Source: a virus
DNA length: 53,273 nt
IMG/VR virus record: IMGVR_UViG_3300033553_000194
Span: 1 to 53,273 of that record
Reading direction: 5' to 3' (one strand)
Shown one piece after another: positions 2,348 through 53,273 of the stretch. The notes beneath the pieces are model-generated. The model had not been told where the DNA came from. It made no database searches and was given only the letters and a program-made list of their open reading frames with translations. Each line of letters opens with the position of its first letter. Within the stretch, counting starts at the first letter, position 1. Made by a program: the position numbers and the translations under genes.

Positions 2348-2643
2348 TGCGAACCGCCGTCAGAGAAACATCAATCCGGGCATTTCATGGCCATACAGGA
2401 AAGCTGACGCAGTGTGAGCGAATCCTGGCGCTGATTGATTCGGGCCGTGGCTCGTGGTCGATTGGCGAGGTTGCAGCGGCGCTGGGTATGGAGAAAAGCA
2501 CCGTTTCTGCGCGACTCAATAGCCTGTTGCACGACGGCTTGCTGGTCGAGCGCACAGAACGCAAGGACAAGATTTCAGGCATTACGGTGCGCCCGGTAGG
2601 CCGCCCGCAAGTGCAGGCTGATTTGTTTGGGGGTGTGCAGTGA
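2347..2643 (+). CDS. Winged-helix (MarR/ArsR-like) regulator
   Basis: This 98-residue protein has a clear winged helix at about residues 25-80: SIGEVAAALGMEKSTVSARL is the helix-turn-helix and the following LVERTERKD segment the wing. It starts in a TGATG overlap and ends in a GTGA overlap with the replication gene, so it is expressed with it. It could regulate replication or bind the origin. This is inferred. Confidence 0.65.
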   Translation: MRTAVRETSIRAFHGHTGKLTQCERILALIDSGRGSWSIGEVAAALGMEKSTVSARLNSLLHDGLLVERTERKDKISGITVRPVGRPQVQADLFGGVQ

Positions 2644-3470
2644 ATTACTACCCCTTCCACATTGGCGACTATTTGAGCGCCACCCGGCATTTGAGCTGGG
2701 AAGAGGACGCGGCGTATCGTCGCCTGCTGGATACCTACTACACCAACGAGAAGCCGCTGCCGGTTGAGTTGCGCGCAGTGTGCCGCCTTGTGCTTGCTCA
2801 GACGGAAACGCAGCGAGAGGCCGTCGATGTCGTACTGAATGAGTTCTTTGAACTCACGCCAGACGGCTGGATCAATCATCGCGCAGATGGCGAGATTGAG
2901 AAGATGCAGGCTCTGCAGCAGAAGCAGCGCGACAAAGCAAACAAGCGGTGGCAGAAGCCGCAAGCAGAACACGGCAATGCACCGGGAATGCCGCAGCACG
3001 AAATTGAAGATGCTGCGGCACCAAAAACTTGCGCAGGTGCAATGCCACCAACACCAACACCAACACCAACACCAATACCAATACCATTAAAAGAAGAAGA
3101 ACAAAAGATAGCCTCGCCTGCGGCTCAGCCGTCACCTTCCCCGAAGGCAAAGCGATTTGATCCGCAGGCCCACATCGAAGGCTTGGGCGTGCAGCCCGGC
3201 ATCGTGTCCGATTGGCTGGCGCTGCGGAAGGCGAAGAAGGCGACTGTTACCGAAACCGCCGTGTCTGGCATTGCATCCGAAGCTCTGAAAGCTGGTGTTT
3301 CGCTGGAAGCCGCCTTGGCGACCTGCTGCGCCCGTGGCTGGTCAGGCTTCAAAGCTGAGTGGCTGCTGAACGACAAACAGCGCCAGCAAGGCCCACAAGG
3401 CTCTCCGACGAGCTTCAACAATCGCATTGCCAGCGGCGCTGCGACGATCATGCGAGGGCTTGAGCAATGA
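2640..3470 (+). CDS. Phage replication protein, DUF1376 (YdaU) type
   Basis: This 276-residue protein begins with the DUF1376 block (residues 1-90: YYPFHIGDYLSATRHLSWEE, then RRLLDTYY), typical of phage replication-initiation genes placed before a helicase loader. A Pro-Thr/Pro-Ile linker near residues 138-150 is encoded by a 6-bp CCAACA/CCAATA tandem repeat (about 3049-3087), so its length can vary without losing frame. A C-terminal basic domain (about 170-245) is probably DNA-binding. GTG start, GTGA overlap upstream and ATGA overlap downstream. Confidence 0.75.
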   Translation: MNYYPFHIGDYLSATRHLSWEEDAAYRRLLDTYYTNEKPLPVELRAVCRLVLAQTETQREAVDVVLNEFFELTPDGWINHRADGEIEKMQALQQKQRDKANKRWQKPQAEHGNAPGMPQHEIEDAAAPKTCAGAMPPTPTPTPTPIPIPLKEEEQKIASPAAQPSPSPKAKRFDPQAHIEGLGVQPGIVSDWLALRKAKKATVTETAVSGIASEALKAGVSLEAALATCCARGWSGFKAEWLLNDKQRQQGPQGSPTSFNNRIASGAATIMRGLEQ

Positions 3471-17381: not shown

Positions 17382-19013
17382 ATGCTGATCAAGATTGCAA
17401 ACTTCTCCGGCATCGCGCCGAGGGTATCTGCGCGGCTTCTGCAAGATAATCAGGCTCAAGAGGCGACAAATGTAAGGCTCGCGTCTGGAGAGATTCGACC
17501 TTTGCGTGCGCCGCTCGAGGTTGCCGGCACACTCGTTTCAAATGCGCGCACCATTTACCTTCTGATCGACAAATGGCTGTCATGGCCTTCGCGCGTTAAG
17601 GTCGTGGCATCGCCCATCGCAGATACGGATAGCGAGGGCCGCATTTATTACACGGGCGATGGGTTCCCAAAGAAGACATGGCATGCGAAGGCGACATTCG
17701 GTGCGGAGCCGTACCCGTCCGTCAATTGGCAAGGCTTGGCGGTTCCCGGCTTTGCCTTGGCCGCAACGCTCAGCCCAGCCGTCGGCGTTATCCCGTCAGG
17801 CACTTATGCCTACGTCGCCACGCTGGTCAATCGATTCGGCCCTGCGGCTTCTGGCGTGCTTGAAGAGTCTCGGCCATGCCCTGCAACGCTAATCACTTTC
17901 ACAAGCCCAAGCTCAGTTCAGGTGACGCGCCCAGCGCTGCCGACGACATACGAAGGCCGCCCGGTAGCACTGGCTTATGAGTTCTGGCGGGTGTATCGAT
18001 CAAACGAGCTGGGGCAATATCAGCTCGTGTCCGGCGACATCCCTATTGCGACGACAACGTTTGATGATGTTCTGGCTGCGCCAAAGAGCACGGCACTCCC
18101 AAGCATCAATTGGCATGAGCTGCCAGATGATGCGGGCGGACTGGTTGCAATGGTCAACGGGGTTCTTGCGGCATTCAGGGGGAATGAGGTTCTGTTTTGT
18201 GAACCGTGGTTTCCGCATGCGTGGCCGATTCAGTACCGACAGACTATCCCCGCAAAGATTCTGGCAATTGCTCCGGCAGGCGCTTCGCTAATTGTTCTCA
18301 CGGATGGAACGCCGTACATCATTACCGGCTCACACCCTGATAGCTTCTCGCAAGAGCAGATCAATATCTTCTCCCCGCTCGCCTCGCCTGAGTCTGTCGT
18401 GGCTGATGGGTATAGCGTGATGTACGCTTCTCGCGATGGCATCGCCTCAATTTCATCGACTGGTGCGCATGATCTAGTATCGCGCAGCATGTTCGACATT
18501 GAGGACTGGCGCGACTTGGCCCCGTCAAGCATGGTCGGGACGACTTATTACGGCGGTTATCTGGTCTTCTATGAGGATCATGGCGGATCAGAAATAACCA
18601 AGCGCGCTTTGTGGCTCCAGACCCGAGACAGCCCGACATTGGTTCGGGTTGAGATGGCGGGAGTTGCCGCGCACAAAGAATTCTTCCTGACGGAAACCAA
18701 TAGTATTTTGGAATTCGACGCCAATCCAGTCGCGAAAATGGCGGGCCTTGTTTGGCGTTCAAAGGTTTTTACCGTCCCTGCGCCAAAGAATTTTGGTTGC
18801 GTACAGGTGCAGGCGAGCTTTCCTGGAACGGTCACGGTAAAGATCTTTGCTGATGGCGTGTTGCGTGCGGAGCGGTCGATCACAAGCACGCGTACGGTGA
18901 AGCTGCCGGCCGGATACCTTGCGCGTGATTTTGAGCTTGAGATTTCAGCGGACATTGCGGTGCAATCAGTCTCGATGGCGGTGACGATGACAGAATTGAG
19001 GGTCACGTCATGA
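17382..19013 (+). CDS. Tail structural protein, probably beta-propeller
   Basis: This 543-residue protein begins IKIANFSGIAPRVSARLL, the usual opening of podoviral tail-hub proteins, then has repeated short strand blocks (LIVLTDGTPYIITG, SVMYASRDGIASIS, YLVFYEDH) suggesting a propeller. The C-terminal 90 residues look like a small beta-sandwich. Likely part of the short tail between connector and fibre. ATGA overlap with the fibre gene. Confidence 0.6.
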   Translation: MLIKIANFSGIAPRVSARLLQDNQAQEATNVRLASGEIRPLRAPLEVAGTLVSNARTIYLLIDKWLSWPSRVKVVASPIADTDSEGRIYYTGDGFPKKTWHAKATFGAEPYPSVNWQGLAVPGFALAATLSPAVGVIPSGTYAYVATLVNRFGPAASGVLEESRPCPATLITFTSPSSVQVTRPALPTTYEGRPVALAYEFWRVYRSNELGQYQLVSGDIPIATTTFDDVLAAPKSTALPSINWHELPDDAGGLVAMVNGVLAAFRGNEVLFCEPWFPHAWPIQYRQTIPAKILAIAPAGASLIVLTDGTPYIITGSHPDSFSQEQINIFSPLASPESVVADGYSVMYASRDGIASISSTGAHDLVSRSMFDIEDWRDLAPSSMVGTTYYGGYLVFYEDHGGSEITKRALWLQTRDSPTLVRVEMAGVAAHKEFFLTETNSILEFDANPVAKMAGLVWRSKVFTVPAPKNFGCVQVQASFPGTVTVKIFADGVLRAERSITSTRTVKLPAGYLARDFELEISADIAVQSVSMAVTMTELRVTS

Positions 19014-22000
19014 GTCGCCTTACGTCAATTCCAGAGCCGGGCGACGATGGGCGATCACTCCAGCGTACAACAAAGGCGCTCAAGCAAAACGTCGAGGTTA
19101 TTACCGGGCAGCGTGGCAACAAACTATACGGCCTGCCGGTCAATACAAGCATCCTTGCGATTATCACGAAGCTGAACGAAGTCATTCAGCGCCTACAGGG
19201 CGGCGAATCAGGCAGCGCAGGCGGATCGGTTCCGTTTGCACTCTTGCCGGAAGGCATTGCGCAGCTGCCCGGCATGCAGGACATTCCTGCCGGGTACGAT
19301 ACTCCGGGCATCAAAGCGGCTGGCGGCATTGTTGCGGTCGATGACGCAACAGCCATTACGGCCCCGCCCGGCAGCCCGCCTCCTGGCGGAGAAAACTATC
19401 TAGCGGTGTTCGACAAGGCCACAAAGAAGATGGCGGCTTGGGACGCAGCAGCCGGGCACTACACATTTGCCGTTTCAGCAGCCGACATCGCCGGCCGGAT
19501 CGCCGAGGCCAATGCGCCGCAGACGATGCTCGATGCCATTGTTGATCTGGACGCGGGGATTCTTGCGGAAGAAACGGCCCGCATCGGCGCAGACGCCACG
19601 CTGCAAATCCGGGCAACTGCGCTTGAGACGAGCGTCAATCACGCGACTACAGGTCTGCCCGCAACTTACGCCAAGGTGGCGGCTGAAGAAACGGCCCGCG
19701 CCAATGCTGATTCAGCGCTTGCTACACGCGCAACGAGTCTTGAGGCAACGGTTAATCACAGTACGACTGGCGTTGCGGCCTCTTACGCGCGCATCACTGC
19801 CGAGGAAACTGCTCGCACGAATGCTGATTCAGCACTGGCTTCACGTGCTACGGCTCTCGAAGCCTCCGCTACGGGCGGCGGCAACTTGATCCCTGACGCG
19901 GGGTTTGAGGCAGGCATTGGGCCTGCTGTATTAGGCGGGAAGTCAGTCCCTGCAGATCCGACTCTGAACTTCGGCGTCAATTATGTGGGCGATCCGTATC
20001 ACCCGCCCGGCATGAATAGTATTGGTGGGAACCGTCCGGGGACATGTACCGGAACGCAAGACTTAATCATCAGTGCGTATATCCCGGTAGAGCCCTCTGC
20101 GCGCTATTGCGTCTCTGGATGGCTGGCAAATCATCGTGGGCAGGCTGATATTGCGATGTTCTTTGCCGACTCATCGCAGGTTTACATCAGCGAAGTCCAT
20201 TCGCCGGTTGTGACTGAGGCGACGAATGGGGGGTCTAACCTAGCTGGCTTTCAGCGTACAAGTGTTTTTGTGGTCTCTCCGGCAAACGCCCGCTACGTCA
20301 GAGTATTTTTCAGGATGTATCCGGTTGTTGGTCTGGTTGATCATTATGCGTGGCTCGTCCGCCCAATGCTTGAGCGTGCCAGCGCAGCGCAAACGCAGCC
20401 CTCGCCGTGGTCGGCTGGGGCTGTTGGCGCCTATGCCCGCATTTCATCCGCCGAGACGGCCATTGCGACGGAGACGAGCGCCCGCGCAACGGCGGTGAGT
20501 CAGGTCGCAGCCCGGCTCAATGACGGTGGAGACATCAAGACGGCGATTGTGCAGACGCAGACCACCGCGAATGCGACGGCGGCGGGGCTTGCGAGTACCT
20601 ACAGCCTAACGCTCTCTGCTGGCGGTGCCATAAGCGGGATCAAGGCCTTCAACGATGGTTCGACAAGTGCGTTACGCATCACGGGCGATCAGGTATCGAT
20701 CACGCCCGGAAACCTCGTTATTGACGACGGGTTCTACTCCCCGCAATGGTGGTCTGGCGGGTGGGTGGCTGGAGGCAATGCAACATGGCCTACCAACTTT
20801 ACTCCGCAGGATGGTGACGGGCTGTCGCAGCCAAAGCGGTTTTTATGGATTAGCCCGGGGGCGTTTGCTGCGATAGCGGGAAAGACTGTTGCGGCTGAGC
20901 CTGGGGCCGCATATCGAGTCCGCTTGCGCATTTATAGATCGGAAGATTTTACGGGGAATATTTTTGCGGGCATGCACATCCCTGGTGTGGTGTGGGCCAT
21001 GCCCGGCCCAGTGGTTTCAAATGCCTGGGATGGCGGGATGGCCCACCTGAGCAACTTGGAGGGCTTGGGTAGTTGGCAAACCTATGCCGGAATTTACACA
21101 ACGTCGTCGGCACATTCATACCTTCAAACGCGTATTGATGCAGAGGTCTTGACCGGGTTCGTCGGGATTTACCTAGAGTGCGTTCGCGCTACTGGTGCAA
21201 GCTTGATCGTCGACGGTGAAGTCACCGCCACAAAGCTTGCCGTAGCATCCGTCAGCACCGCAGCGTTGCAGGCTGGAGCAGCAACTTTCGACAAGATTTC
21301 GGTGGCATCGCTCGGCGCGATCAGCGCCAATCTCGGGTCGATTATTACAGCGTCTATTGATCTGGCTGGCGGTAGTGGCTGGCAGTACATCCGCACCGCG
21401 AGCAAGTGGTGGGGTGATGGCGTTAATGGCTGGATCAGCGCAGCCCGCCCCGAGAATGGCAGCTACTTCCAAGAGTTCCGAGCGTCCTCCGGCAATTCCC
21501 TGATTCTGGAGCAGAAGTCCGGTGGGCCGGACTTCGGCGGTACTTACTACAACCTACAGCTTGTCGACCCGAATGGGCTGACTAGGCTGCACATCAATCC
21601 GGCTGCGTCGATCTGCACAATCCGTGGTCGCATTGAGGCAGATGAGGGGTATTTTTCCGGGACGCTCAACGCGCCCAGCGGCACATTCGGCACGATCACT
21701 GCCGGCTATATGCAAAATTCAGGCAATACATGCTCCCTGAATTTGAACGCTAGTGGCACAACGCCGCTGCTGCGTGCAGGCTCACGAGACTTGATCCTTG
21801 CGAGCGGCAAGACGCAATTTCAGAACGAAATCTGGTCGCAGTGGGTGATTTTAAATAAGTCCATTCTCACGCTTGATCCGGGAGGTGGCGGATTTTATAC
21901 ATATGAAGGGGCCGTCTCTCATGAGTTTGACTTGGGGGCTAATTTCGACGTAGGCGCACTCGGATCGCAAACCTTCACGACTCGTGTGTGGGGTTATACC

Positions 22001-22225
22001 GCCACATGGAATCAGTATACAACTAAGCGTATAGGCGTTTCAGGGACTGTGCGGTACATGATGCCGCCAGCGTCAGGAGGGTCTTGGTCGACTTGCCGTC
22101 TAGTGGTCTCTGTGAGTATTGCACTTTTTAATTCAGACGGCTCTGCGGTAGCAGTAGGGGTAGTTATGGGATATGACAACTTTGTTGTTGACCAACTTGG
22201 TATTGCAGTTGCGGGGTTATCCTAA
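19010..22225 (+). CDS. Tail fibre / central tip protein
   Basis: This 1071-residue protein starts with a short virion-binding region. Residues about 185-290 contain three similar 39-residue coiled-coil repeats (EETARxxADxxLxxRAxxLE). A beta-sandwich domain follows (about 295-470), then another coiled coil, a second carbohydrate-binding-like domain and a C-terminal strand-rich end. The family resembles lambda J/DUF1983 tip fibres, which bind the host surface. It is followed by the chaperone gene with a TAATG overlap. Confidence 0.75.
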   Translation: MSRLTSIPEPGDDGRSLQRTTKALKQNVEVITGQRGNKLYGLPVNTSILAIITKLNEVIQRLQGGESGSAGGSVPFALLPEGIAQLPGMQDIPAGYDTPGIKAAGGIVAVDDATAITAPPGSPPPGGENYLAVFDKATKKMAAWDAAAGHYTFAVSAADIAGRIAEANAPQTMLDAIVDLDAGILAEETARIGADATLQIRATALETSVNHATTGLPATYAKVAAEETARANADSALATRATSLEATVNHSTTGVAASYARITAEETARTNADSALASRATALEASATGGGNLIPDAGFEAGIGPAVLGGKSVPADPTLNFGVNYVGDPYHPPGMNSIGGNRPGTCTGTQDLIISAYIPVEPSARYCVSGWLANHRGQADIAMFFADSSQVYISEVHSPVVTEATNGGSNLAGFQRTSVFVVSPANARYVRVFFRMYPVVGLVDHYAWLVRPMLERASAAQTQPSPWSAGAVGAYARISSAETAIATETSARATAVSQVAARLNDGGDIKTAIVQTQTTANATAAGLASTYSLTLSAGGAISGIKAFNDGSTSALRITGDQVSITPGNLVIDDGFYSPQWWSGGWVAGGNATWPTNFTPQDGDGLSQPKRFLWISPGAFAAIAGKTVAAEPGAAYRVRLRIYRSEDFTGNIFAGMHIPGVVWAMPGPVVSNAWDGGMAHLSNLEGLGSWQTYAGIYTTSSAHSYLQTRIDAEVLTGFVGIYLECVRATGASLIVDGEVTATKLAVASVSTAALQAGAATFDKISVASLGAISANLGSIITASIDLAGGSGWQYIRTASKWWGDGVNGWISAARPENGSYFQEFRASSGNSLILEQKSGGPDFGGTYYNLQLVDPNGLTRLHINPAASICTIRGRIEADEGYFSGTLNAPSGTFGTITAGYMQNSGNTCSLNLNASGTTPLLRAGSRDLILASGKTQFQNEIWSQWVILNKSILTLDPGGGGFYTYEGAVSHEFDLGANFDVGALGSQTFTTRVWGYTATWNQYTTKRIGVSGTVRYMMPPASGGSWSTCRLVVSVSIALFNSDGSAVAVGVVMGYDNFVVDQLGIAVAGLS

Positions 22226-22721
22226 TGACCATCAAATACAAAATTGATTCAGAAGGTGTTCTGGTCGGGTTCGTTCGCGCATTGCCCGGCTGCGTTTTAG
22301 ATCACCCAGAATTGTATGTTGTAGAGCCTCCCCCAGAAGCTCCTACCGGAAAAGTCGCCGTGTGGGATGGCTCACAGTGGGGAATTGAAGACGCAAAGCC
22401 TTACGTTGCGCCTGAGCCACCCAGCGCCCCAGCGCCCCAGCGCCAACACAAGCGGAAGTTATCGCCTCCTATACCGCTGCGCTGGATCAATTCATCGACG
22501 CCAAGGCGCGCGAGCGTCAGTACGACAATCGAATGACGTGTGCGATGCGGGCAGGTTACCCCGGCCCGTTTCAGGCAGAGGGCATCGCCTTCGGGACTTG
22601 GATGGATTCGTGCTATGAGGCGGGTTATGCGCTAATGGCTGATGTTCTTGCGGGCGTGAAGCCCATGCCGACCGTCGAAGCGATGCTCGCGAGCATGCCG
22701 GCGATGGCTTGGCCGGAATGA
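22225..22721 (+). pseudogene. Tail fibre assembly chaperone, out of frame at an 8-bp repeat
   Basis: The N-terminal part (22225 to about 22440) is a small strand-rich domain followed by a Pro-rich hinge. The C-terminal part, in another frame, reads EVIASYTAALDQFIDAKARE and continues to NRMTCAMRAGYPGPFQAEG ... to the stop at 22721, as in phage tail-assembly chaperones placed after fibre genes. The two halves are split by three perfect copies of CCCAGCGC (22420-22443). Removing one copy restores a single frame of about 162 codons. As written, the first frame stops at 22536. Mutation, phase variation and assembly error are all possible. Confidence 0.75.
22420..22443 (+). repeat. Octanucleotide tandem repeat, 3 copies
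   Basis: CCCAGCGC repeated three times without mismatch. Since 8 is not a multiple of 3, each gain or loss moves the chaperone frame; 2 or 5 copies give the open frame. Confidence 0.9.
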
Positions 22722-22810: not shown

Positions 22811-22825
22811 GCGCCGTGTATGGCA
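22811..22825 (+). promoter_or_regulatory. Late-promoter-like 15-mer, copy 4
   Basis: GCGCCGTGTATGGCA, 39 bases before the ATG at 22865. It opens the ejection-protein block. Confidence 0.7.
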
Positions 22826-22864
22826 GCCTACAAGTGCTATGCGAAATCGATCGTCGAGGGGTGT

Positions 22865-24010
22865 ATGAATAAACGGAAACTTGCTGAGATTGTCCGAAAA
22901 GAAGGAGTCCGTGAGTCTCCACGAGACACGGTTCTTGCCCATATTCGACCAGATGAAGCTGAGCTGTTAAAAAAGCTTGGCGGGTCTGGCCGTATTTTGT
23001 CTACGGGACTACCCTCGTTTGACGATAGCGGCGATAGTGGGGACGGTAGCGACAGTGGTGGCGACGGCGACGATAGTGGTGCCGATAGCGACGGCAGCGA
23101 GGGAAATAGCGACGGTAGTAGTGGAAATAGCGGCGATGGAGATAGCAACGGCGGCCCGAGCGACGCAGACGGAAATCCTAACGGCGACGGCCCGGATGGC
23201 ACGGGGAATAATAGCAATTCAGCAGGGGGTGGATCTACATCTGGACAGAGCAGCGACGGGCAAAATAGCAACGGCCCGAATGGCGAGCCCAGTACCGCGC
23301 AACAAGAAGCGTTTAACGCAGAAGTTGACGCGGCCATCAATAACAATGCCCCAACATCTTTCGATACGTCTCCAGAGCAAGAATCCCAAAACGAGGCCAC
23401 GGCAGCACATGGGAATAACACTGATACCAGCACGGCAATGGGACAGGCGACACAAGACGCCATAACTGCTGCTCTCAGCAACCCTACGGCATATTCGCAT
23501 GCTTTTGGTGTTGAGGCTCCTGTGTCAATGTTTTCGTCCACGCCAACTTTCTCTCAGGTCGCGAAAGCGGTTGGTATGCCAACGGTTAGCTTTGCTCTAG
23601 CGGCCTTGACTAACAATCCGATTGGAATGGCCACGAGTGTTACAAAGGGGGCCTCGAATATGGCCTCATTGATGGGAACGCAGACGGTGGGCCATAACAC
23701 AGCCGCGCAAGCCGCCCTCAGTGCTAACGATGCAGCCAATAATTCAACCAGCAATTCGACCAATGGAGTCGGAACGGGTGCTGGAGCAAATTCCGGGGCA
23801 AATACTGGAGCAGGGAGCGGAGAGAATTCCGGAGGGGATTCCAGTTTTGAGAGCAGCCCGGATGTGAGCAGTGGGGCTACGAGAAACTCGCCAGCAGACG
23901 TTGCGTCAACCATTGGCGTAATCAATCCGCAAACAGAAAGCCGCATAACGCCTCCGTTAGCAAGACTTGGAACATTCCCAATGGCAGAACAATTATGGTG
24001 GAGATCTTGA
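22865..24010 (+). CDS. Probable internal virion (ejection) protein, low-complexity
   Basis: In this 381-residue protein, a basic N terminus (residues 1-40) is followed by about 110 residues almost wholly Ser, Asp, Gly and Asn, then Ala/Asn/Thr-rich sequence with a more hydrophobic stretch near 230-270 (SFALAALTNNPIGMATSV). The ATG at 22865 has GAGGGG before it. Low-complexity, flexible proteins in this position, before the giant polyvalent gene, are usually ejected with DNA. Function inferred from place. Confidence 0.5.
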   Translation: MNKRKLAEIVRKEGVRESPRDTVLAHIRPDEAELLKKLGGSGRILSTGLPSFDDSGDSGDGSDSGGDGDDSGADSDGSEGNSDGSSGNSGDGDSNGGPSDADGNPNGDGPDGTGNNSNSAGGGSTSGQSSDGQNSNGPNGEPSTAQQEAFNAEVDAAINNNAPTSFDTSPEQESQNEATAAHGNNTDTSTAMGQATQDAITAALSNPTAYSHAFGVEAPVSMFSSTPTFSQVAKAVGMPTVSFALAALTNNPIGMATSVTKGASNMASLMGTQTVGHNTAAQAALSANDAANNSTSNSTNGVGTGAGANSGANTGAGSGENSGGDSSFESSPDVSSGATRNSPADVASTIGVINPQTESRITPPLARLGTFPMAEQLWWRS

Positions 24011-40448: not shown

Positions 40449-40524
40449 TGGAGCGGGAAGCCGGGTTCGAACCGGCGACAGTCAGTTTGGAAAACTGAAG
40501 CTCTACCAACTGAGCTATTCCCGC
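40449..40524 (-). tRNA. tRNA-Gly (anticodon UCC)
   Basis: All arms fold: acceptor GCGGGAA/TTCCCGC, D stem GCTC/GAGC, anticodon stem TCAGT/ACTGA with loop TTTCCAA (anticodon TCC), T arm GCCGG-TTCGAAC-CCGGC, and a coded 3' CCA. Complete and apparently functional. It lies between integrase arm-type repeats, so it is probably also the attachment core: the phage would enter a host tRNA-Gly and carry a full copy. Confidence 0.92.
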
Positions 40525-40889
40525 GTTTAGGCTGTGGGCGGCCGAGAACCCCCGACCCTACGCCGTTGCCGCGTTTGACCAGCGAATGAACTCTAGCACA
40601 CGAATCGACCGGACAAGAAAAACCGGACAAGAAACAGGATAAATTCCTTGTCCGGTTGGTGTCAAGCCTTGCGGCTACAGGCTTGGAGCTGGTTTTTACA
40701 CCTCGCCGTGGAAGGTGCGGTGCATATCTGCCGAAGTCCATTTACGTCCAGAATGCCTTGCTGCTACACTAGCTGAGCGGGTTTTGACGTCCGGGAAAAT
40801 CTGGATTTGTCCATCTGCAGCCGGATAAAAACCGGATAAAAACTGGACAAGAATCGGGCGGCTCGGCGTTGTCCGGTCAGGTGCACGAC
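40525..40889. other. attP arm region between tRNA-Gly and integrase
   Basis: No gene is seen here. Two direct copies of ACCGGACAAGAAA (40608-40620, 40622-40634), an inverted TTGTCCGGT (40648-40656), two CCGGATAAAA-type copies (40821-40840), CTGGACAAGAA (about 40843-40853) and another TTGTCCGGT (40869-40877) mark repeated binding sites for the integrase and its directionality factor. Confidence 0.7.
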
Positions 40890-42071
40890 ATGCCATCACT
40901 GAACGACACAAAATGCAGGCAGGCCAAGGCTACAGACAAGCCATACCAGTTACAAGACGGCGGAGGGCTATATCTTGAGGTCAGGCCAAGCGGAAAGAAG
41001 ACGTGGCGCTATCGTTATTGGCTGAATGACAAAGACGGACGGCTGACGATTGGCGACTATCCGCGCGTATCTCTTCAGGACGCCAGGAGAGCCGCAGAGG
41101 ATGCGCGGGTGATGTGCCGTGAAGGAAAGAGCCCGGCAATAGCAAAGCGGATCGAGAAGCTGACGGCCTTGGTGACTTCTGACGGAACGTTTGAATCCGT
41201 GGCGCGCGAATGGATCGAGAAGAAGACGCCTACCTGGTCGCAGCGGTACAGGAAGGAAACCGTCACGATTCTGGAAGGCAACATCTTCCCGCCCCTGGGC
41301 AGCATTCCGATTGCCGAGATTAAGCCGGCTACGCTGCTTGGCGTGCTGAAGATCATGGAGGCACGCGGCGCAGCCACCTACGCGAACATAGCGCGCAGCC
41401 GATGCTCGGCGGTGTTCCGCTACGCAGTGCAGAACCTGTATTGCGAGAGCGACCCGGCTGCGATGCTAACGGGCGCAATCATCAAGGGTAAAGAGAATGG
41501 CGCGCGGCCAATGTCCCGCGAGGTGATTGCAGGCCTGAAGACGCGGATCACGAACTACAGCGGAAACCACACAACCATCATTGCGTTTTGGATGCTCCTA
41601 TTGACGTTTGTTCGCACGATTGAGCTACGCCGGGCCGAGTGGGCGGACGTTGATCTTGACGGGGCCCTATGGACGATCCCTGCCGATAAAATGAAGATGC
41701 GGCGGATTCACCTTGTCCCACTCTCGCGCCAGATGGTTGAGCACTTGCGATACCTGAAGCGGATCAGCGGAGGCGGGCGGCTGTTATTCCCGCACCTTCG
41801 CCGGCCTGATGAAATGATGAGCGTCGACGTGATCAACTCGGCACTGAAGACAATGGGCTACGCGCCCGGGGAGTGGTCCGCCCATGATTTTAGGGCTACG
41901 GCCAGCACGCATCTGCATGAGCTAGGCTACCCCACTGAGCACATCGAAATGCAGCTTGCGCACGCCGATGGAACGGTTAGAGGTATCTACAACCACGCCA
42001 AGTACCTGCCGGATCGGCGGGTGATGATGCAAGCCTGGGCGGACTGGATTGATGGGCTGTCTGTCCAATAA
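40890..42071 (+). CDS. int: P4-type tyrosine integrase
   Basis: This 393-residue protein has an N-terminal DUF4102/arm-binding domain (DTKCRQAKATDKPYQLQDGG, GLYLEVRPSGKKTWRYRY), a core-binding domain (about 100-190), and a catalytic domain with Arg in FVRTIELRRAEW (near 241), HxxR in AHDFRATAS (near 332) and the Tyr in YNHAKY (near 367). It catalyses integration and excision at attP. The ATG at 40890 is preceded by AGGTG. No sign of an integron-integrase-specific insertion, but this was judged only by eye. Confidence 0.9.
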   Translation: MPSLNDTKCRQAKATDKPYQLQDGGGLYLEVRPSGKKTWRYRYWLNDKDGRLTIGDYPRVSLQDARRAAEDARVMCREGKSPAIAKRIEKLTALVTSDGTFESVAREWIEKKTPTWSQRYRKETVTILEGNIFPPLGSIPIAEIKPATLLGVLKIMEARGAATYANIARSRCSAVFRYAVQNLYCESDPAAMLTGAIIKGKENGARPMSREVIAGLKTRITNYSGNHTTIIAFWMLLLTFVRTIELRRAEWADVDLDGALWTIPADKMKMRRIHLVPLSRQMVEHLRYLKRISGGGRLLFPHLRRPDEMMSVDVINSALKTMGYAPGEWSAHDFRATASTHLHELGYPTEHIEMQLAHADGTVRGIYNHAKYLPDRRVMMQAWADWIDGLSVQ

Positions 42072-45656: not shown

Positions 45657-46348
45657 CACACTTCTCCCCTGATTGCTGCGAGTGCTTCTTTTGATAAAGA
45701 TATGGGGCACGGAAATAGTTGGGCTATTTCCTCAAGCGCATCCGTCGCTATCTTGAGATGGGCGCGGAGTTGGTCTCGCTCTAATGTCAGTGCGTCATAG
45801 TCGTGGTCGTATTGCGCCACCATCAAATCCAACTCAGCCACCTTCGCCAGCGCGGCATGGAGCTGGGGTGCGGGGACGAGCGGAATGTCGTGATAGGTGT
45901 CTTCCTCGGGCGACACAGTAGGAAACGTCAAATCTCGTTGATCGTTTTTACGTAGCCCATTCCACCACAACACCAGATCCACGCTCACCGCCTCAATGGC
46001 AGCGAGTTTTGCGCGGAGTTGGTCGTGTGCAATCCCGACTTTCACCATACGCTCAAATTCGAGCCGGGCTACGATTACAACATTGCAATCGTCGGGGTAC
46101 GAATACAGATCCTCCCCATCCTCCCAGCTGAGGAGTTTTGCTGTTGATTCCTCGCGCCCTTCCTGCCGGGCTGCTTCGAGTGCGGCTTTGTCGTCGAGCG
46201 GCTTGTTTAGGAAAACGTCAGGTTCCCGGTTCCAATCATCGTATGTACCTGATCCAGGCTCCCCGTAATAGAGTCGTTGATCATTTAGATCTCGGTTCGA
46301 CCACTCGCAAAAATAGCCGAAGGGCTCAATCTTCTTTGTGTCAGTCAT
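45656..46348 (-). CDS. Unknown early protein
   Basis: A 230-residue protein: an acidic aromatic N-terminal part (FGYFCEWSNRDLNDQRLYYG) and two coiled stretches (about 95-125 and 165-215). ATGA overlap with the upstream gene. Similar N-terminal blocks occur in phage proteins of unknown function. Confidence 0.6.
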   Translation of the reverse strand: MTDTKKIEPFGYFCEWSNRDLNDQRLYYGEPGSGTYDDWNREPDVFLNKPLDDKAALEAARQEGREESTAKLLSWEDGEDLYSYPDDCNVVIVARLEFERMVKVGIAHDQLRAKLAAIEAVSVDLVLWWNGLRKNDQRDLTFPTVSPEEDTYHDIPLVPAPQLHAALAKVAELDLMVAQYDHDYDALTLERDQLRAHLKIATDALEEIAQLFPCPISLSKEALAAIRGEV

Positions 46349-46956
46349 TTTGTTTCCTTAACTTGCCATGGTGCAGTTCCATTGCACATTTTGATAAACA
46401 TCTCTTTTTGTGCATCCCCAGCACCATCCCACGCAGCCTCCCTCGCAGCCCTCGCACCATCCCACGCAGCATCCCACGCAGCATCCCACGCAGCCTCCCT
46501 CGCAGCCCTCACACCATCCCACGCCGCAGCCCACGCAGCATCCCTCGCAGCCTCCCTCGCAGCCCTCGCACCATCCCACGCAGCATCCCCAGCACCATCC
46601 CACGCAGCACCTAGCTCACTGCGTGACGCTAAACCGTTCGCGAAACGTTCAGCCACATCGTTGCAGTGTTTTACGAGGGGATCGGGACTTAAATGCTCAA
46701 CCTGCCGTGCGCACCAGACGGCAAACAGCCTGCGATCACGATCTGTGGCATTGCTCGCCCGTAGCGCCCACAGCGCATCATCAAGGCCATTCGTTTCAAG
46801 GATGGATAACAGGCTGATTGGTTCTGCATAAGCGAATCGGATATAGGTTTCTCGCTCAGGGTCGAACGGAACACCCTTTAGTGCAGATACGACTTTGTTG
46901 TAACCGCTGATGCAGGCTTGGTGTTTTCGTAAGGCTTTTGGTGTTGTTGTAATCAT
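46345..46956 (-). CDS. Protein with Ala/Trp/Asp tandem repeats
   Basis: In this 203-residue protein, residues 1-112 are an ordinary alpha-helical domain (FAYAEPISLLSILETNGLDD, LFAVWCARQVEHL). Residues 115-185 are short repeats of AAWDAAWDGARAAREAA type, predicted as one long helix. The DNA of this part (about 46425-46610) is a tandem repeat in multiples of three. ATGA overlaps at both ends. Function unknown. Confidence 0.6.
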   Translation of the reverse strand: MITTTPKALRKHQACISGYNKVVSALKGVPFDPERETYIRFAYAEPISLLSILETNGLDDALWALRASNATDRDRRLFAVWCARQVEHLSPDPLVKHCNDVAERFANGLASRSELGAAWDGAGDAAWDGARAAREAARDAAWAAAWDGVRAAREAAWDAAWDAAWDGARAAREAAWDGAGDAQKEMFIKMCNGTAPWQVKETK

Positions 46957-53252: not shown

Positions 53253-53273
53253 CCCCCCCCCCCCCCCCCCCCC
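53253..53273. repeat. Poly-C run at right end
   Basis: Twenty-one C residues. They follow ATGCAATTA at 53244, so a start codon directly precedes the run. See the left end for the joined reading. Confidence 0.6.

Follow-up and report, generated by a model that had tools for sequence, protein, structure and literature searches.

The gene directly behind the tail fibre gene of a temperate P22-like phage is probably present in this record as an OFF allele made by slippage, with a tail-fibre-assembly-type product and a lesion that would be reversible in principle. In this gene (22225–22721), a linker rich in proline and alanine would connect a variable N-terminal part to a conserved C-terminal domain of four helices. 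The linker contains an 8-bp repeat, at which slipped-strand mispairing would have given rise to a three-copy allele, in which the shifted frame would cut the protein after its N-terminal part (OFF). Losing one copy by the same slippage would restore a protein of 162 aa. On a conservative reading, the slippage-made OFF allele may or may not revert. We infer all three elements of this account, namely slippage as the origin, reversibility and the role in fibre assembly.

All coordinates refer to the window, by which we mean the whole stretch of 53,273 nt that was analysed. The record encodes P22-type portal and Phage_capsid_3 proteins, RecT, a YqaJ nuclease and an integrase, and we therefore assign it to a temperate P22-like podovirus. 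The closest relative of the capsid is found in a Giesbergeria anulus prophage (66% identity), and this prophage has the joined form of the interrupted gene.

Reading frames and tail-fibre context

The features on which the argument draws are the following.

19010–22225, plus strand: tail fibre / tail protein gene of 1071 aa, ending in a TAA that has one base in common with ATG 22225
22225–22536, plus strand: interrupted gene as sequenced, N-terminal part with an out-of-frame tail, 103 aa; stop TGA 22534–22536
22420–22443, plus strand: octamer tract (CCCAGCGC)x3, perfect copies in the proline/alanine-rich linker
22444–22721, plus strand: conserved C-terminal helical domain (C-domain), in frame -1 with respect to the N-terminal part (tblastn, relatives, AlphaFold2)
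22479–22485, plus strand: GCGCTGG, exact inverted complement of the CCAGCGC in all three octamers
22533–22721, plus strand: possible restart ORF of 62 aa, with an ATG that overlaps the stop of the 103-aa frame (ATGA)

The original prediction held that three perfect octamer copies at 22420–22443 break the frame of this gene and that two copies would give one continuous frame to 22721. Both statements were confirmed by the tract itself and by the positions of the stops. The frame of the N-terminal part ends at TGA 22534–22536 after 103 aa. The second frame, which lies at -1 relative to the first, is closed upstream by TGA 22413–22415 and open to TGA 22719–22721, and the two frames overlap from 22416 to 22533. 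Counting to the stops for one, two, three, four and five copies affords products of 125, 162, 103, 133 and 170 aa, respectively; the frames join only with two (or five) copies, and the two-copy product of 162 aa ends at 22721. By log-odds of codon usage, the first frame scores better until about 22440 and the second from there on. Codon usage thus switches frame at the tract and, like the relatives described below, supports the joined frame as the norm.

The 1071-aa gene upstream matches a PHROG tail protein (E 5.5e-4), and in tblastn it hits phage proteins annotated as tail and central fibre. For the N-terminal part of the interrupted gene itself, no homologue is convincing; its weak matches are phrog_7703 (E 0.008) and phrog_1807, a tail fiber protein (E 0.15). 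In 21 of the 22 relatives of the C-domain, a long ORF sits directly upstream with a spacing of a few bases. Ten such ORFs were scanned against Pfam and PHROGs: nine match tail fibre, tail spike or tail collar families, and the tenth (locus L018) contains BNR-type repeats. Matches to PHROG "tail fiber assembly" families are seen for several of the relatives, the best of them with E 5e-15. The members of PHROG 105, 188, 35518 and 7290 (tail fibre assembly) likewise stand directly after the fibre, and several relatives of the same architecture match these families; unlike those members, the pieces from the window match neither these families nor Pfam significantly. Since Pfam gives these pieces nothing and PHROGs give weak hits at most, the chaperone label is taken from the relatives. 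The label is reasonable but indirect, and the likeliest role is one in fibre assembly. The gene named a tail chaperone in the original prediction does follow a tail fibre and does have relatives that match assembly families, and the chaperone itself stays a putative one. Directly after the interrupted gene, a 396-aa ORF (22820–24010) contains a long low-complexity region rich in Asp, Ser, Gly and Asn.

The C-terminal domain and its relatives

In tblastn searches the C-domain matched Aminobacter phage Erebus (E 4e-13), Sinorhizobium phage phi2LM21 and others. We ran a profile of the domain over about 1,590 prokaryote genomes, and one further locus came from IMG/VR; the set of relatives, which includes both of these phages, numbers 22. 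The original prediction had proposed a comparison with relatives as a check on the joined frame, and the joined form turned up in all 22: in each, one uninterrupted frame encodes the C-domain together with a variable N-terminal part, and no stop falls inside the domain. The open frame around the C-domain spans 142–259 aa in the other records versus 101 aa in the window, and the relatives' proteins measure 114–201 aa, as compared with 162 aa for the two-copy form. That the joined frame is the normal form of the gene is well supported. The closest C-domain homologues are only about 51% identical, and the recent history of the tract is therefore untraceable.

AlphaFold2 models the C-domain as a confident four-helix bundle (pLDDT 97.2), in which helix 1 (residues 3–23 of the C-terminal piece) starts right behind the tract and upstream of ATG 22533. 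A fold search of the PDB returned no solved structure that resembles the domain, and in BFVD it shares its fold with unnamed phage proteins only. A Pfam search of the window's two pieces gave zero matches. The helical C-domain adjoining tail fibres (window 22444–22718, loci L015–L040) has no Pfam family.

On two rival readings, both frames would be translated from the sequence as it stands. The C-domain could be a separate gene with its own start, as it is in two phages, Mano and RHph_X2_26, where this start lies upstream of the domain. In Achromobacter phage Mano (L005:2796–3279), the two overlapping genes Mano_015 and Mano_016, a short ORF and the C-domain, are read in different frames from starts of their own, and in the window a stop and a start overlap as ATGA at 22533. 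However, the C-domain frame of the window offers no ATG, GTG or TTG ahead of helix 1, and a restart at ATG 22533 would leave out helix 1 together with the most conserved residues, the D..A....YD motif; we regard two separate genes as highly improbable. Since such a product would lack helix 1 as well as the D, A and Y-D positions that are conserved, the three-copy allele is expected from the model to be null for the C-domain. Programmed -1 ribosomal frameshifting, known from other phage tail genes, could join the frames across 22416–22533 in the direction that is needed, and the RNA around the tract (22400–22540) folds somewhat better than shuffled sequences (z -2.6). Yet the overlap lacks an X_XXY_YYZ slippery heptamer, slippage on CCC-C proline codons would be +1 and hence in the wrong direction, and none of the 22 relatives uses frameshifting, all being joined in one frame; this mechanism, too, has very little probability.

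Origin of the octamer tract

Several observations indicate that the tract did not assemble by chance. None of 300 order-2 Markov simulations of the window gave a tract with at least three perfect copies at a period of 8–12; among synonymous recodings of the 103-aa frame, 0.01% held such an array (period 7–10); and a scan of about 135 kb of relatives' DNA found zero such arrays (period 5–30). We therefore consider the tract a real structure. The lone octamer CCCAGCGC is not rare in the window (10 hits against 4.7 expected), the exact 24-mer of the tract occurs once in the whole record, and the window contains no second tract of such type besides 22420–22443. The base that follows, 22444, is the first of a partial fourth copy. 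The unusual part is the tandem array rather than the single octamer, and slippage or duplication explains this array best. Tandem duplication by slippage is the usual origin of such arrays. Each octamer can pair with GCGCTGG at 22479–22485, and the resulting hairpin might favour slippage.

A precedent for the gain and loss of whole units is the 4-bp CTGG repeat in lacI of Pseudomonas putida, which is an insertion/deletion hotspot (PMC3485313). The octamer tract is like this hotspot in being a short tandem array of a kind that gains and loses whole units both ways (PMC3485313); it differs in that the lacI repeat has a 4-bp unit, resides in a bacterial gene and comes with no claim of adaptive switching.

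The window contains two further arrays of other types. A CACCAA hexamer array (3046–3086; five perfect copies, 6.8 in total) in a replication-type ORF (2640–3470) encodes an in-frame PTPTPTP linker, and a changed length would not shift the frame. A 57-bp tandem array (46412–46608; 3.5 copies, 90% alike) in a minus-strand ORF (46345–46956) is also in frame (19 codons) and encodes AWDGA/AAREA-type repeats.

If the real molecule had two copies, the gene would be intact and the third copy an assembly or sequencing error. Assemblies are known to go wrong at tandem repeats, and artificial-looking poly-C runs stand at both ends of the record. On the other hand, a 24-bp tract is short relative to ordinary reads, and the remainder of the record looks accurate, as exemplified by an ORF of 3137 aa and by portal and capsid genes that are intact. 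An error of this kind seems quite unlikely to us. The poly-C runs themselves (1–16, 16 C; 53253–53273, 21 C) are probably library or assembly artefacts and not genome ends.

Given a slippage-made OFF allele, a one-off and possibly dead mutation fits the data equally well as a switch. Given the integrase gene and the tRNA-Gly close to it, the contig could also be a decayed prophage, in which case the lesion would be irrelevant. This tRNA-Gly (TCC) is complete (40449–40524), lies just upstream of the integrase gene (40869–42071) and likely marks the attachment site or is a carried tRNA.

Possible phase variation and its implications

The tract has several properties of a phase-variable locus: it is a perfect tandem repeat inside an ORF, its unit is not divisible by three, it is present in three copies, and one copy number (two) would give a full-length, homologue-like protein. 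It is not kept in homologues, a property that is usual but not strictly required. A true contingency locus would be one in which selection keeps the tract and a mixture of ON (two or five copies) and OFF (one, three or four copies) forms varies adsorption or host range. Three copies of an 8-bp unit just reach the cut-off in use for detecting phase-variable tracts of 6–9 bp units (PMC5953494), the linker around the tract tolerates changes in length, no other tract of its type occurs in the window, and phages with receptor-binding proteins that are switched by slippage do exist, namely Fletchervirus (PMC8713573, PMC8766974). Against this stand the genes of 21 relatives, which contain no repeat of three copies at a period of 6–20, and the linker of locus L040, which has no comparable tract either. 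Moreover, three copies are the fewest that are usually accepted for a phase-variable tract of 6–9 bp units and imply modest switching rates, and the single domain match in the record points to a single assembly gene, such that the phage may be non-infective when OFF. As none of the relatives examined carries a comparable tract, this is not a conserved contingency locus, and selection for switching strikes us as doubtful.

The comparison with known systems leads to a similar picture. Like the simple-sequence contingency loci of Neisseria and Haemophilus, the tract is a non-triplet tandem unit in an ORF whose copy number sets the frame (PMC5953494); unlike them, it has the minimum copy number only and is absent from relatives. 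With the Campylobacter Fletchervirus phages it shares a phage host-recognition gene for which switching by slippage is proposed (PMC8713573, PMC8766974). There, the receptor-binding proteins themselves switch, as demonstrated experimentally, whereas here an octamer in a putative assembly gene would be what switches. By analogy with the slippage precedent, the published cut-offs and Fletchervirus, the proposed octamer switch is plausible.

The claim that the tract works as an ON/OFF switch found no backing in our searches: neither a two-copy allele nor a near relative came to light, and the relatives' genes are free of a comparable tract. An exact search of IMG/VR with the 3' flank of the tract returned no other record, hence no second allele. 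IMG/VR searches with both pieces of the gene, the fibre, the portal, the capsid and a further tail gene gave no relative near enough for a comparison of the tract, and comparison with phage records at the DNA level gave no match. A literature search on octanucleotide phase variation yielded one incidental paper. We rate as unlikely the proposal that octanucleotide slippage in a temperate P22-like phage turns tail-fibre assembly on and off through the chaperone and not the fibre, and that populations would mix fibre-complete particles with fibre-deficient or altered ones.

As a by-product, this analysis describes a helical domain that is conserved in genes adjoining tail fibres and that Pfam lacks. 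If the two copy numbers do not coexist, the slippage-made OFF allele would be one more slippage frameshift, and mainly a reason for care when genes and host range are called from one metagenomic contig. If both coexist, an octanucleotide switch at the level of the chaperone would join the few known cases in which phages vary host recognition by slippage.
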